A stretch of DNA of 64,000 nucleotides from positions 5,016,001-5,080,000 of the forward strand of contig NZ_CP022655.2 in assembly GCF_002243345.2 (NCBI RefSeq). The letters run 5' to 3'. The stretch is from Paenibacillus sp. RUD330. GTDB taxonomy: Bacteria; Bacillota; Bacilli; Paenibacillales; Paenibacillaceae. The notes beneath the pieces are model-generated. The model was not told the DNA's origin and made no database searches. It was given only the letters and a program-made list of their open reading frames with translations. Below are positions 2,375 to 6,439 of this stretch, piece after piece. Every line of letters starts with the position of its first letter. The stretch's first letter is position 1. Position numbers and translations under genes: made by a program.

Positions 2375-2401
2375 TTAATCGCAAGAAGTTGTGAGAGTTT
2401 C

Positions 2402-3478
2402 CTACCGGTTAAGGCCATCGAGCCTCGCTTGCGCCTTTTCATTGCCGTGACGGGCGCTCTCGCGGTAGGCCTCTGCAGCTTTGCCGGCTTGTCCCGACAA
2501 TTCATAATATAAGCCCAGGTTGAACTGCGCCGCGTCCGTACCTGTCCCCTTGACGCTGTCATAACGATCGCTGTCGCCTATGGCTATTGCCTTCAAGTAG
2601 GAATGTTCGATCCGGGGCAGCAGGTGGACACGAGTGGAAGGCTCCGCCATTATGTAGTCCATATAAAAAATTCCGCATGCAAAGTAATAATCGGGAAATT
2701 GGCTCGTATATTCATGGGACTGATTGACCAATTCCATTCCCCGGTCCAAGTCTCCAAGACCTATAAGGGCGTACAAATAATGCACGACTACATTGGGAGC
2801 ATACGGTTCCCGGCCATGGAGCCGTCCCAGCGACTCCTTCAAATACCGGGATGCTTCCGCATAATTTTTGATGCCGTAATACTCCTTGCCCAATTGATAA
2901 GCGTAATAGGATTTGCTTGTGCCCTCCGCTTCATATTCCATGAGCAGCAGGGGGATGTTTCTTGAGGATTTATCCGTCCCTTTGTATCCGTCATGGTTTA
3001 CGAGGAGAGGAATGTTGCGGCGGGGCGCATCGGATTGGGCCTGCTCATGAATTCTGCCTGCATATCGAACGTCTCCGGGAAGCAGTCTGGACACCCAGCC
3101 GCCGGCTTGGCTGTTCTCCCCTTCGCCATTCACGAAATCGCTGTCGATTCGGATGCGGCCTATCTGTCCGGCATTCTCCATGAATTTCCTGATCTCTTCC
3201 CAATCTGCAGATACCACGTACTCATCCGCATCCAAAATCAGCTTCCATTCGGCAGACGACCGACTGAGAGCATAGTTCCGCGCTTCCGCAAAGCTGTCTC
3301 CCCATTGAAAATCGAACACATCGGCTCCAAAGTCCTGCGCGATCTGCTTGGTTCTGTCGATCGAGCCGGTATCCACGACAATGATCTCATCGACATGGGA
3401 ACGAACGCTTTCGAGACAGCGTCCCAGCGTAGCCTCTCCGTTTTTGACGATCATAACCAATGCCAACTGCTTTCTCAT
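2402..3478 (-). CDS. Family 2 glycosyltransferase with TPR-like C-terminus, possible flagellin glycosyltransferase
   Basis: The 358-residue protein begins with a GT-A fold of family 2: the nucleotide-binding start (LALVMIVKNGEATLGRCL), the VDTGSIDRT segment and the LDADEYV metal-binding motif near residue 85. From about residue 190 the sequence turns into helical repeats (YYAYQLGKEYY, FNLGLYYELSGQAGKAAEAY) that look like TPRs. No membrane segment or signal peptide is visible, so it should act in the cytosol. It lies directly downstream of two flagellin genes and upstream of flaG, which suggests that it adds sugar to flagellin; this is inferred from position only. Start ATG 3478 follows GAGGA by about six bases. 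Confidence 0.82.
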   Translation of the reverse strand: MRKQLALVMIVKNGEATLGRCLESVRSHVDEIIVVDTGSIDRTKQIAQDFGADVFDFQWGDSFAEARNYALSRSSAEWKLILDADEYVVSADWEEIRKFMENAGQIGRIRIDSDFVNGEGENSQAGGWVSRLLPGDVRYAGRIHEQAQSDAPRRNIPLLVNHDGYKGTDKSSRNIPLLLMEYEAEGTSKSYYAYQLGKEYYGIKNYAEASRYLKESLGRLHGREPYAPNVVVHYLYALIGLGDLDRGMELVNQSHEYTSQFPDYYFACGIFYMDYIMAEPSTRVHLLPRIEHSYLKAIAIGDSDRYDSVKGTGTDAAQFNLGLYYELSGQAGKAAEAYRESARHGNEKAQARLDGLNR

Positions 3479-3500
3479 GCCATTCCATTCCTCGCTCTAT

Positions 3501-3534
3501 AAAAATAAAAGGACCTTAGATGAAATCCAAGGTC
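3501..3534 (-). terminator. Intrinsic terminator after the left hag copy
   Basis: A near-perfect 11-bp stem (GGACCTTAGAT against ATCCAAGGTCC, GAA loop, one mismatch) is followed on the minus strand by a T-rich run. It sits between the flagellin stop and the glycosyltransferase start. Confidence 0.85.
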
Positions 3535-3563
3535 CTCGGGTGATGCTGTTGGATAAAAAACGA

Positions 3564-4331
3564 TTAACGGAGCAGGGACAGTACGCCTTGCGGAGCCGAG
3601 TTGGCTTGCGCCAGCATCGATTGCGATGCTTGAAGAAGGATGTTGTTCTTCGTGAGAGCAACCATTTCCTTCGCCATGTCCGTATCGCGGATGCGGGACT
3701 CGGAAGCCGTCAGGTTTTCCGTTGTCGTTCCCAGGTTGTTGGACGTGTACTCCAGACGGTTTTGAACCGCGCCAAGCTTGCCGCGTTCCGTTGCTACAGC
3801 GGAGATCGCATCGTTGATGCTCGAGAGCGTGGAAGCGGAAGTCAGAGCGTTGAAGCTGCCCGTCGACACGGAGGAGATCGTGATCAGCGTGCCTTTGTCG
3901 TCCGTAACGATGCCGGCGCCGGCCGTGATGCTCTTGCCGTTGAACGTCGTGTTCGTCAGGATGTTGCTGATTTGGGAAGACAGGGCCGTCATTTCTTCGC
4001 CGATGTTGGCCGTATCAGCGGATTGGTACGTGCCGTTGTCTTTTTGGATCTTCAGTTCCTTCATGCGAGTCAGCATGGCGGAAACTTCGTTCAGAGCGCC
4101 CTCAGCCGTTTGCACGAAGGAGATGCCGTCTTGCGTGTTGCGTTGAGCTTGCTCGAGGCCGCGGATCTGGCCGCGCATGTTCTCGGAAATGGAAAGGCCG
4201 GCAGCGTCGTCGGCAGCGCGGTTGATGCGCAGGCCGGAGGAGAGTTTCTCCATGTTTTTGCTGGCAGCCGTTTGGTTCAGGCCCATGTTGCGATGCGTGT
4301 TGACTGCGGAAATATTGTGGTTGATAATCAT
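3564..4331 (-). CDS. hag: Flagellin, left copy
   Basis: Flagellin is the filament subunit. The 255 residues hold little more than the conserved N-terminal and C-terminal helical regions: the start IINHNISAVNTHRN, the SSGLRINRAADDAAGL motif and the end SMLAQANSAPQGVLSLLR. The variable centre is very short. It differs from the right copy at about 11 residues by my count, all in two patches (residues 94-108 and 156-170). Start ATG 4331 follows GGGAGG. Its own SigD-like promoter, CsrA-site leader and terminator flank it, so it should be expressed independently of the right copy. Confidence 0.97.
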   Translation of the reverse strand: MIINHNISAVNTHRNMGLNQTAASKNMEKLSSGLRINRAADDAAGLSISENMRGQIRGLEQAQRNTQDGISFVQTAEGALNEVSAMLTRMKELKIQKDNGTYQSADTANIGEEMTALSSQISNILTNTTFNGKSITAGAGIVTDDKGTLITISSVSTGSFNALTSASTLSSINDAISAVATERGKLGAVQNRLEYTSNNLGTTTENLTASESRIRDTDMAKEMVALTKNNILLQASQSMLAQANSAPQGVLSLLR

Positions 4332-4364
4332 GATTCATTTCCTCCCTGAGTATAAAGAATAATC

Positions 4365-4378
4365 CCACATCCTTGTGG
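4365..4378 (-). promoter_or_regulatory. CsrA-binding hairpin in the left hag leader
   Basis: The minus strand reads CCACA-AGGA-TGTGG, a 5-bp stem presenting AGGA in the loop. It contains ACAAGGATGT, which matches the core of the known high-affinity CsrA consensus (ACARGGAUGU). A second GGA lies in the ribosome-binding site (4341-4348), as expected for a two-site CsrA-repressed leader. Confidence 0.75.
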
Positions 4379-4423
4379 TAAAGCCGTTATCAGGTCGGCC
4401 GCCCTTTAACTGCTCTAAAGAAT

Positions 4424-4451
4424 ATATCGGGGAGGAAACCGTCATTGTTTA
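4424..4451 (-). promoter_or_regulatory. SigD-type promoter of the left hag copy
   Basis: On the minus strand TAAA (4451-4448) is followed after 16 bases by CCCGATAT (4431-4424), seven of eight bases of the SigD -10. The TAAA lies at the relict csrA stop. The arrangement is the same as at 5552-5579. Confidence 0.75.
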
Positions 4452-4535
4452 TAGCTTTTTTTGATAAAATCAAGGCTTGAATCAGATTCTTCAAATCCTC
4501 CGTAGAGAACGGAGCTGTGAATCGTTTCGCGTTGC
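4449..4535 (-). pseudogene. Relict 3' end of csrA at the duplication scar
   Basis: Read on the minus strand this piece encodes STEDLKNLIQALILSKK, clearly related to the end of the intact CsrA (SMDDLKSQIQALNLSKKL), with a small frameshift near the stop. The RNA-binding part of CsrA is absent and no start or ribosome-binding site is present, so it is a leftover. It is also where the left hag promoter sits, which may be why it was kept. Confidence 0.8.
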
Positions 4536-4564
4536 AGGAGCGATATTCAGTTAAGGCGCAGCGT

Positions 4565-4607
4565 TGCCCGTTCCTGATCATATCTTCAATGCCAATCGCC
4601 TTCTCAT
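4565..4607 (-). pseudogene. Relict 5' end of the glycosyltransferase gene
   Basis: From ATG 4607 the minus strand reads MRRRLALKI and then a stop. The nucleotides match the start of the glycosyltransferase gene (MRKQLALVMIVKNG) at exactly the 1129-base offset. Homology fades at about 4565, next to the csrA relict. It marks the old junction of the tandem duplication. Confidence 0.75.
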
Positions 4608-4630
4608 GCTGTTCATATTTCTCTGTTTAT

Positions 4631-4664
4631 ACAACAAAAGGACCTTGGATGAAATCCAAGGTCC
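4631..4664 (-). terminator. Intrinsic terminator after the right hag copy
   Basis: A perfect 11-bp stem (GGACCTTGGAT / ATCCAAGGTCC with a GAA loop) is followed on the minus strand by TTTTGTTG. It should stop transcription of the right hag before the left copy. Confidence 0.88.
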
Positions 4665-4692
4665 TCGGATAAGGCTGTAAGATAAGAAAAGA

Positions 4693-5460
4693 TTAACGAA
4701 GCAGGGACAGAACGCCTTGCGGAGCCGAGTTGGCTTGAGCCAGCATCGATTGCGAAGCTTGAAGAAGGATGTTGTTCTTCGTGAGAGCAACCATTTCCTT
4801 CGCCATGTCCGTATCGCGGATGCGGGACTCGGAAGCCGTCAGGTTTTCCGTTGTCGTTCCCAAGTTGTTGGACGTGTACTCCAGACGGTTTTGAACGGCG
4901 CCCAGCTTGCCGCGTTCCGTTGCTACGGCGGAGATCGCATCGTTGATGCTTGTGAGCGTGGATCCGGAGGTCAGACCGCCGAAACTGGTAGTGGTCACGG
5001 AGGAAATCGTAATCAGCGTGCCTTTGTCGTCCGTAACGATGCCGGCGCCGGCTGTGATGCTCTTGCCGTTGAACGTCGTGTTCGTCAGGATGTTGCTGAT
5101 TTGGGAAGACAGAGCCGTCATTTCTTCGCCGATGTTGTCCTTGTCAGCCGTTTGGTACGTGCCGTTTTCCTTTTGGATGTTCAGTTCCTTCATGCGCGTC
5201 AGCATGGCGGAAACTTCGTTCAGAGCGCCCTCAGCCGTTTGCACGAAGGAGATGCCGTCTTGCGTGTTGCGTTGAGCTTGCTCGAGGCCGCGGATCTGGC
5301 CGCGCATGTTCTCGGAAATGGAAAGGCCGGCAGCGTCGTCGGCAGCGCGGTTGATGCGCAGGCCGGAGGAGAGTTTCTCCATGTTTTTGCTGGCAGCCGT
5401 TTGGTTCAGGCCCATGTTGCGGTGCGTGTTGACCGCGGAAATATTGTGGTTGATAATCAT
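4693..5460 (-). CDS. hag: Flagellin, right copy (next to csrA)
   Basis: A second 255-residue flagellin, identical to the left copy in residues 1-93 and 171-255 and in most of the centre. It has N, E, T, K and D in place of K, D, S, T and A in the 94-108 patch, and a Thr/Gly-richer 156-170 patch. It lies in the normal Bacillus position directly after csrA, so it probably represents the original locus. Start ATG 5460 follows GGGAGG inside the CsrA-site leader. Either or both copies may build the filament; nothing in the sequence says which dominates. Confidence 0.97.
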   Translation of the reverse strand: MIINHNISAVNTHRNMGLNQTAASKNMEKLSSGLRINRAADDAAGLSISENMRGQIRGLEQAQRNTQDGISFVQTAEGALNEVSAMLTRMKELNIQKENGTYQTADKDNIGEEMTALSSQISNILTNTTFNGKSITAGAGIVTDDKGTLITISSVTTTSFGGLTSGSTLTSINDAISAVATERGKLGAVQNRLEYTSNNLGTTTENLTASESRIRDTDMAKEMVALTKNNILLQASQSMLAQANSAPQGVLSLLR

Positions 5461-5492
5461 GATTCATTTCCTCCCTGAGTATAAAGAATGTC

Positions 5493-5506
5493 CCACATCC
5501 TTGTGG
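5493..5506 (-). promoter_or_regulatory. CsrA-binding hairpin in the right hag leader
   Basis: The CCACA-AGGA-TGTGG hairpin is identical to that of the left copy, about 32 bases before the start codon. Further upstream in this leader AGCAGTTA and TAACTGCT form an extra 8-bp stem, which has one mismatch in the left copy. Confidence 0.75.
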
Positions 5507-5551
5507 TAAAGCAGTTATCAGGTCGGCCGCCCTTTAACTGCTCTAAAGAAT

Positions 5552-5579
5552 ATATCGGGGAGGAAAGCGTCATTGTTTA
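5552..5579 (-). promoter_or_regulatory. SigD-type promoter of the right hag copy
   Basis: Minus strand: TAAA (5579-5576, overlapping the csrA stop codon), a 16-base spacer, then CCCGATAT (5559-5552). It predicts a leader of about 85 nt that contains the CsrA hairpin. Confidence 0.78.
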
Positions 5580-5822
5580 TAGCTTTTTAGATAAATTTAA
5601 AGCTTGAATCTGACTCTTCAAGTCATCCATAGAAACGGACCGCTGAACCGATTCGCGGTTGGAATCCTCAATTGCGACATAGAGCTCCTTCCTAAGGATC
5701 GTGACATCCTTGGGGGCTGAGATGCCGAGCCGAATTCCGTCGGAGGTCACTTCCAGGACGCTGAGCTCGATGTCATGGCCGATCAGAATGGACTCGCCTT
5801 TTTTGCGGCTGAGTACGAGCAT
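5577..5822 (-). CDS. csrA: Translational regulator CsrA
   Basis: CsrA is a dimeric RNA-binding protein; in Bacillus it blocks translation of hag mRNA and is held off by FliW. The 81 residues start with the conserved LVLSRKKGESILIG strand and include DGIRLGISAPKDVTILRKELY, the RNA-contact core. A C-terminal tail follows, as in other Bacillus-type CsrA proteins. Its ATG overlaps the fliW stop (TGATG), so the two are translationally coupled. hag lies directly downstream with two GGA sites in its leader, the expected target. Confidence 0.96.
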   Translation of the reverse strand: MLVLSRKKGESILIGHDIELSVLEVTSDGIRLGISAPKDVTILRKELYVAIEDSNRESVQRSVSMDDLKSQIQALNLSKKL

Positions 5823-6274
5823 CAGGCTTCTCCCTCCGTTCCAGCGGTTGTGACGGGAGCTTGCAGACGATGTCGAGTCGTATACCCCGTCCCTTCCAAA
5901 ATGATCTGTGCTCCCTTGCGGGCGGCCGCGTTCAAGATTACGGGAGCCACGAGGTTGATCGTGGCCTGTTCCAGCGAGCCCTGGATACTCACAATATTCA
6001 GTACGCGGACATCCTCGATCGCCGCGATGGCCAGCTCCTGCTCCGTCTGCTCGGGAAGATTGAACTCGTAATCCGGATAAAAGGAAAAGGGATCGACCGC
6101 GACGAAAGCAAGGCTGCCTTCCTCGATGGACTGCAGATAGTAGAACGGGCTGTCCTCCACATCGATCAAAGTAAAGCTTCTATAATCCGCAAAACCGGGA
6201 ATGCCGTGAGGGAATGTATACACCTCGTTGTCCCGGAACTCCAATTGCCCGAAACGGGTCGTTTCAATCAGCAT
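5822..6274 (-). CDS. fliW: Flagellar assembly factor FliW
   Basis: FliW binds either flagellin or CsrA and so links free flagellin level to hag translation. The 150 residues show the family's features: ETTRFGQLEF, FPHGIPGFADYRSF, YLQSIEEGSLAFVAVDPFSFYPDY and VLNIVSI. I prefer ATG 6274, eight bases after AGGGAG. The frame is open to a GTG at 6283, but that codon adjoins the ribosome-binding site. Overlap with csrA by one base implies coupled translation. Confidence 0.94.
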   Translation of the reverse strand: MLIETTRFGQLEFRDNEVYTFPHGIPGFADYRSFTLIDVEDSPFYYLQSIEEGSLAFVAVDPFSFYPDYEFNLPEQTEQELAIAAIEDVRVLNIVSIQGSLEQATINLVAPVILNAAARKGAQIILEGTGYTTRHRLQAPVTTAGTEGEA

Positions 6275-6389
6275 TTCAATCACTCCCTGGTCTGCTTGAT
6301 CTGTGGAAAAGAAGAAGAAAAGAATAGAAGTTTAAGATCAGAGATTAATCAGAGATCATAAATTTGAAACTAGAAGATTAAAAAACAAG

Positions 6390-6439
6390 AAAAAGAAACA
6401 AAGAGCAACAAAATCGTTATTCCGATTTTATCGCTCTTT
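6390..6439 (-). terminator. Terminator between yviE and fliW
   Basis: Complementary arms AAAGAGC/GCTCTTT and AAAATCG/CGATTTT form a long hairpin. The minus strand is T-rich after it, consistent with the end of the yvyF-to-yviE operon. Bases 6275-6389 between this and fliW are AT-rich and should hold the fliW-csrA promoter; I could not pick a clear one. Confidence 0.7.

Follow-up and report, generated by a model that had tools for sequence, protein, structure and literature searches.

The window analysed here, 64,000 nucleotides of the Paenibacillus sp. RUD330 genome (G000:C1:5016001-5080000), contains two flagellin genes in tandem, hagA and hagB, separated by a scar of two broken genes, and each copy is preceded by a leader whose 5' stem-loop carries a palindromic apical loop. 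We consider it probable that the locus arose by one duplication of about 1.13 kb of a csrA-hag-glycosyltransferase (GT) segment near the split from the nearest genome (G004), that selection has since shaped the two copies, and that the palindromic leader loop acts in RNA. Of these subjects the leader element matters more than the duplication, and it sits in the well-studied CsrA-FliW-Hag circuit. All genes under discussion lie on the minus strand, where their order is fliW-csrA-hagA-scar-hagB-GT-fliD.

A tandem flagellin unit with a two-gene scar

The tandem duplication and its scar are real. The two hag units stand head to tail and in register at an offset of 1127-1129 nucleotides, and their alignment spans the csrA 3' end, the leader, the open reading frame (ORF), the terminator and the sequence up to the GT start. 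The encoded flagellins are 96% identical over 255 amino acids each. The 361-nt spacer between them consists of the hagA terminator, the decayed GT start, a junction near 4537-4553, the decayed csrA end, and the promoter and leader of hagB. A previous sequence-only reading of this DNA had proposed just such a duplication and had recognised in the spacer a decayed GT start (MRRRLALKI, then a stop) joined to a decayed csrA end; both peptides were located, the first closing the ORF at 4578-4790(-) and the second, DLKNLIQALILSKK, lying in the ORF at 4390-4581(-). The alignment of the remnants that it had suggested as a check upholds it as well: the csrA remnant scored 82 against the csrA gene of the same locus and the GT remnant 52 against the GT gene, whereas the best of 2000 mononucleotide shuffles reached 38 and 39, respectively. 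Identity is 58/71 aligned bases for the former and 42/49, with 9 gap bases, for the latter. Homology of the duplicated segment extends 85 nt into csrA, and that to GT reaches approximately base 4553, somewhat past the 4565 given earlier. The features of the locus, all on the minus strand, are as follows.

5822..6283, minus: fliW (Pfam FliW, 4e-39)
5577..5822, minus: csrA, intact, donor of the csrA half of the scar (Pfam CsrA, 1.5e-23)
5552..5579, minus: sigma-D-like promoter of hagA, TAAA-N16-CCCGATAT (pattern and genus alignment)
5508..5544, minus: 5' stem-loop in the leader of hagA, its apical loop self-complementary (folding, genus alignment)
5523..5530, minus: apical loop of hagA, GCGGCCGA, containing the palindrome CGGCCG
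5493..5506, minus: CsrA-type hairpin of the hagA leader, CCACAAGGATGTGG
4693..5460, minus: hagA, flagellin of 255 amino acids (Flagellin_N 9.8e-42, Flagellin_C 1.2e-28)
4640..4666, minus: hagA terminator hairpin, position approximate (fold of 4634-4690, -20.7 kcal/mol, z -5.7)
4553..4608, minus: first half of the scar, decayed GT start (42/49 aligned bases, 0/2000 shuffles)
4461..4537, minus: second half of the scar, decayed csrA 3' end (58/71 aligned bases, 0/2000 shuffles)
4424..4451, minus: sigma-D-like promoter of hagB (pattern and alignment)
4380..4416, minus: 5' stem-loop of the hagB leader (-12.1 kcal/mol, versus -16.8 for hagA)
4395..4402, minus: apical loop of hagB, GCGGCCGA
4365..4378, minus: CsrA-type hairpin of the hagB leader
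3564..4331, minus: hagB, flagellin of 255 amino acids (Flagellin_N 6e-41, Flagellin_C 1.3e-28)
3511..3537, minus: hagB terminator hairpin, position approximate (fold of 3505-3561, -18.4 kcal/mol, z -4.9)
2402..3478, minus: family 2 glycosyltransferase, donor of the GT half of the scar (Glycos_transf_2, 3.5e-19)

The hag promoters are labelled according to the sigma-D consensus. The TAAA of the hagA promoter overlaps the csrA stop codon. In the scar, decay of the csrA end halts at its own stop codon, the point at which the promoter's TAAA starts; the hagB promoter has been retained while the csrA remnant before it has decayed. In our model, a single csrA-hag-GT locus would have undergone one head-to-tail duplication with breakpoints inside the csrA 3' end and the GT 5' end, leaving two complete transcription units, each with a sigma-D-like promoter, leader, flagellin ORF and terminator hairpin. 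Selection would hold these parts and let the broken gene ends between the copies decay, with some homogenisation of the hag ends by conversion perhaps added.

Among the eight genomes of the genus group, G000 included, the complete scar was found in one, G000 itself; the matches in G004 comprised only its intact csrA end and one chance place in a prs gene, the latter being dismissed. The parental order csrA-hag-GT, also claimed by the sequence-only reading, is seen in single-hag relatives both in and outside the genus, as that reading had suggested looking for. G004 has a single hag in this order, and its proteins are 98% (csrA), 93% (fliW), 93% (GT), 96% (fliD) and 97% (hag) identical to those of G000. 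A single hag with GT directly downstream occurs in three of the seven other genus genomes (G002, G004 and G006), and the single-hag order recurs beyond the genus in L098, L100, L101 and L102. No GT match was found downstream of hag in G001, G005 (Paenibacillus pasadenensis DSM 19293) and G007; G003 (P. herberti R33) has two hags and a partial GT match, and in L013, which shares its genome with L099, two hags precede GT. Dating the duplication to after this order arose is true and at the same time says little, because the same order is found beyond the genus.

In kind, the duplication is ordinary, since it is common in the family for a genome to have more than one flagellin copy: 173 of 295 family genomes have a flagellin match (E<=1e-60), and 34 of these 173 list at least two matches, with a maximum of five. 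Several of the multi-copy genomes have head-to-tail hags, and tandem hags are listed in 20 of the 87 scanned stretches (L014 and L093 being one genome). Like other tandem hag arrays of the Paenibacillaceae, the present one consists of hag copies arranged head to tail beside csrA, most copies in such arrays having a leader of their own. It differs from them in that the duplicated segment extends 85 nt into csrA and also takes in the beginning of GT, so as to leave a readable two-gene scar; in the arrays examined the copies mostly share the leader and homology usually stops before csrA, with a reach into csrA of 24 nt in L040 and 4 nt in L013 and the other measurable arrays stopping short. This survey left out L060, L065, L070, L072 and L079, as well as the downstream test of L030. 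Ordinary as it is, the duplication illustrates clearly how such an array originates. An independent tandem pair in P. herberti (L014 5001-5945, the L093 genome) shows an intragenic partial duplication, in which the first 31 codons of the second flagellin are repeated before a nearly full copy in one open frame.

Age of the duplication and divergence of the copies

We infer that the duplication took place at about the split from G004, because hagA is roughly as far from hagB as either copy is from the hag of that genome. Whole-gene synonymous divergence (dS) is 0.140 for hagA-hagB, 0.153 for hagA-G004 and 0.147 for hagB-G004, which is practically a three-way split. The substitution count proposed earlier as a check yields 24 synonymous and 13 nonsynonymous differences between the copies (dS 0.14, nonsynonymous divergence 0.023), five of the latter falling in codons 83-110, eight in codons 153-180 and none elsewhere. 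By dS between G000 and G004, hag is slower than its neighbours (csrA 0.377, GT 0.227, fliD 0.417, fliW 0.263). The Jukes-Cantor (JC) distances of the two remnants, 0.21 and 0.16, fit the neighbour-gene range of 0.23-0.42. From the hag 3' untranslated region to the GT start, the JC distance is 0.072 for hagB-G004 and 0.202 for hagA-hagB.

The sequence-only reading took the near-identity of the coding parts beside a drifting scar to suggest gene conversion or selection. Selection suffices for most of this contrast; conversion is not required, because the hag ends are equally slow relative to the single hag of G004, although partial conversion of the gene ends is possible. The values of dS between hagA and hagB are 0.036 in codons 1-82, 0.264 in 83-110, 0.140 in 111-152, 0.369 in 153-180 and 0.132 in 181-255, and codons 1-82 give 0.036 for hagA-G004 and 0.074 for hagB-G004. 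A similar unevenness is seen between G005 and G001, in neither of which a second hag was seen (0.198 in codons 1-82 versus 1.29 in codons 153-180). The leaders, too, are identical at 117/120 positions between the copies and at 116/118 and 114/118 between the copies and G004. Near-identical ends are thus no proof of gene conversion when single-copy orthologues are equally slow.

One could nevertheless propose concerted evolution, in which the copies would be far older than they look, with conversion homogenising the leader and the gene ends while the middle and the scar drift. In its favour, the likelihoods differ along the gene: the ends favour grouping hagA with hagB by 7.8 log units, and codons 83-180 favour grouping hagB with G004 by 5.2, a mosaic that none of 150 parametric simulations under each null reached. 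Of the variable sites, 12 group hagA with hagB, 17 hagA with G004 and 16 hagB with G004, and four differ in all three; sites shared by the copies cluster (runs test, P 0.028 for these versus all others, 0.09 for three classes). This mosaic, itself a weak signal, counts against our model in that one duplication plus selection alone would not predict it. However, approximately unbiased tests leave the alternative topologies standing, with p values of 0.053 and 0.056 for the ends and 0.137 for the middle (none rejected at 0.05), and exchange with a G004-like strain would yield the same picture. Moreover, the divergence of the scar remnants is only about what would be expected had the duplication occurred when G004 split off. 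Together with the slow ends of the single-copy hag, these observations make concerted evolution of much older copies appear rather unlikely to us.

A palindromic stem-loop in the flagellin leader

In a leader alignment over the genus, we found an unexpectedly constant AAGGGCGGCCGACCT ahead of the CsrA-type hairpin. It is the apical part of a stem-loop located between the promoter and the CsrA hairpin, with the apical loop G-CGGCCG-A. One stem pair is broken in the hagB stem-loop (4380-4416); the same pair is intact in hagA and G004. The core was present in 50 leaders, 25 of which remained after removal of those with arms more than 75% alike. Each of these was folded separately and compared with shuffled arms and with arms swapped between leaders. 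The arms folded better than their shuffled counterparts in 24 of the 25 leaders (p<=0.05; Stouffer Z -16.3), with a mean energy of -15.1 kcal/mol for own arms versus -8.6 kcal/mol for arms taken from another leader. The covariation claim rests on this per-sequence folding, because a MAFFT alignment leaves the covarying arms out of register, such that RNAalifold and the core model R1 kept only 3 pairs.

What is retained in the loop is self-complementarity. The hexamer is CGGCCG in 23 of the 25 leaders and CGATCG and CGTACG in one each, preceded by G (23), A (1) or T (1) and followed by A in all 25. When 149 dereplicated leaders were searched for in-loop GCGNNCGA (GCG-NN-CGA), the centre was self-complementary in 55/55 cases (GC 37, CG 16, AT 1, TA 1; one AT match of L099, outside the loop, was excluded), whereas about 54% would be expected by chance from base frequencies, by our arithmetic, and 25/78 GCGNNCGA centres are self-complementary across the whole window. 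In the full set of 199 leaders, 79 of the 81 centres located in a loop were palindromic, and the two others (L249 and L250) resemble coding sequence upstream of a second flagellin. Since the leaders are related, the independent cases reduce to a few switches, namely GC and CG in family f22 (L191 versus others), CG in L262 of family f11, AT in L021 and TA in L032/L048. Loops outside the GCG-NN-CGA form include those of L109 and L114, where CGTACG is followed by G, and those of L071/L072 and L086, which contain other palindromes. The palindrome is lost in one of the four copies of L109. In L021, with three tandem hags (leaders before 2996, 3996 and 5001), the first copy has the loop CGGCCG and the second and third have CGATCG, so that paralogues within a single genome differ in their palindrome.

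Adjacent bases cannot pair within one hairpin, and a self-complementary centre therefore points either to a contact between two identical loops or to a dyad in DNA. A dimeric regulator binding the palindrome as DNA just downstream of the promoter would be in keeping with the usual form of dimeric operators and with the location of the site close behind the -10 element. On the other hand, the long flanking arms covary in the manner of an RNA stem, with no conservation of their sequence, and the centre varies among all four self-complementary dinucleotides, whereas other centres should also be tolerated in a protein operator. The stems also show G-U over A-C, 8 to 2 among 15 single 1x1 mismatches, a small sample. 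RNA is favoured over DNA because the arms are variable yet complementary and because G-U exceeds A-C, and we regard a DNA operator as quite improbable.

It is also conceivable that the stem-loop does no more than protect an abundant mRNA against ribonucleases at its 5' end, with no pairing role for the palindrome. Stabilisation of mRNA by 5' stem-loops is known in Bacilli, and the one described here is situated close to where the transcript presumably begins. Such a stabiliser, however, needs no conserved loop, let alone a centre that is self-complementary in every dereplicated case, and we think this explanation unlikely. We prefer to think that the palindromic loop would act in RNA, most likely by loop-loop pairing of two flagellin mRNAs. 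RNAcofold predicts an extended duplex of the leader, as it would for any palindromic hairpin. The pairing partners could be hagA-hagA, hagB-hagB or hagA-hagB, and where the loops differ between copies, as in L021, pairing could be copy-specific.

Breadth of the element and its possible role

As a comparative signal the leader stem-loop is real and new to Rfam, its function being suggested by sequence comparison. At E<=0.1, the core model R1 had matches in 36 of the 59 family genomes. Its strong matches are flagellin-specific, since each of the 16 with E<5e-4 precedes a flagellin start by about 70 nt; five of the 16 weaker loci checked are likewise upstream of flagellin. The tally of R1 matches covers 30 checked loci, 19 of them upstream of a flagellin and 11 elsewhere, the latter all with E above 0.001. 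Sequences in the model's own alignment match by construction; G003, G004, G017, G026, G033, G036 and G057 are not in that alignment by locus id. Irrespective of the model, a first palindrome test was positive in 45/118 leaders versus 6.6 expected, and in 21/74 versus 3.7 among those without the GGNCGGCCGA core, these counts including a few AT-rich palindromes of the -10 region (L062, L070, L076) and one region, L040, placed too far upstream. The corresponding figure for 80 leaders of other families of the class was 40 versus 4.6 expected, again with AT-rich -10-region palindromes (L196, L198, L204). For this reason, GC-rich palindromes alone were counted in the final test, in which 46 of these 80 flagellin leaders, drawn from 80 genomes, had a hairpin with significant arms whose loop contains a GC-rich palindromic hexamer, versus 0/80 with one mononucleotide shuffle per leader. 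Three of the 46 (L217, L225 and L236) look doubtful. The positives represent 15 of 24 further families.

Several points weigh against this reading of the leader. The remaining 34 of the 80 leaders failed the test, the element thus not being universal, and some flagellin leaders within the Paenibacillaceae are also without the loop. The counts are inflated by kinship, as family f22 alone, positive in 19 of its 20 leaders, contributes 19 of the 46. Among the 15 single mismatches of the stems, G-U leads A-C by only 8 to 2. In family f14, one of the two leaders (L260) shows no such loop.

Searching Rfam 15 with positions 2400-6400 of the window yielded no match above the gathering score; two matches to Bp1_684, a Burkholderia small RNA family, fell inside the hag genes below that score (E 0.085 and 1). 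Nor did 20 leaders of other families give an Rfam match at E<=0.1.

The CsrA-bound hag leader of Bacillus subtilis was reportedly described by Yakhnin in 2007. In the hag leaders of the window, one GGA lies in the loop of a hairpin and another at the Shine-Dalgarno sequence, a layout by which they fit the CsrA-controlled type and from which CsrA binding and repression would be predicted. In B. subtilis, too, a GGA hairpin is combined with a second GGA over the Shine-Dalgarno sequence, and csrA and fliW are adjacent (PMC7652899); the additional palindromic-loop stem-loop in front goes unmentioned in the parts of that article at hand. Flagellin leader hairpins that are CsrA-bound and show compensatory changes are likewise found in the flaA leader of Campylobacter jejuni (PMC4894983), which, unlike the leaders studied here, has two GGA stem-loops, and for which the portion of the article available mentions no palindromic loop.

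The traits of the element resemble those of a retroviral dimerisation initiation site: a hairpin with a six-nucleotide self-complementary apical loop, a stem maintained by compensatory changes, purine flanks, and self-complementarity kept through sequence change. By comparison with that site, as outlined in the accessible part of PMC7357161, the present element belongs to a bacterial mRNA of one gene, uses several palindromes, and has a dimerisation that is so far predicted. The open-access literature yielded no palindromic or kissing hairpin of flagellin mRNA, most subscription papers lying outside this search, which makes the novelty provisional. Tentatively, and with slightly less than even confidence, we propose that flagellin mRNAs of many Bacilli carry a 5' kissing-loop dimerisation element before the CsrA hairpin, which would link the abundance of flagellin mRNA to its control by CsrA, its stability or its localisation. 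Action at the RNA level, dimerisation and any effect of the loop are all what we infer from sequence comparison. Functional RNA oligomers are, according to the same part of PMC7357161, rarely observed in nature, and a loop that stays self-complementary through sequence changes in the flagellin leaders of many families would lend itself naturally to testing whether bacterial mRNAs pair with one another.

Two minor observations concern the occurrence of the element. In family f16, the leaders L206, L227, L215 and L241 have a GGCCGGCC-like palindrome in a hairpin with a different downstream layout. Outside the window, a further match to the leader core, with one mismatch, lies at G000:C1:715968-715984.

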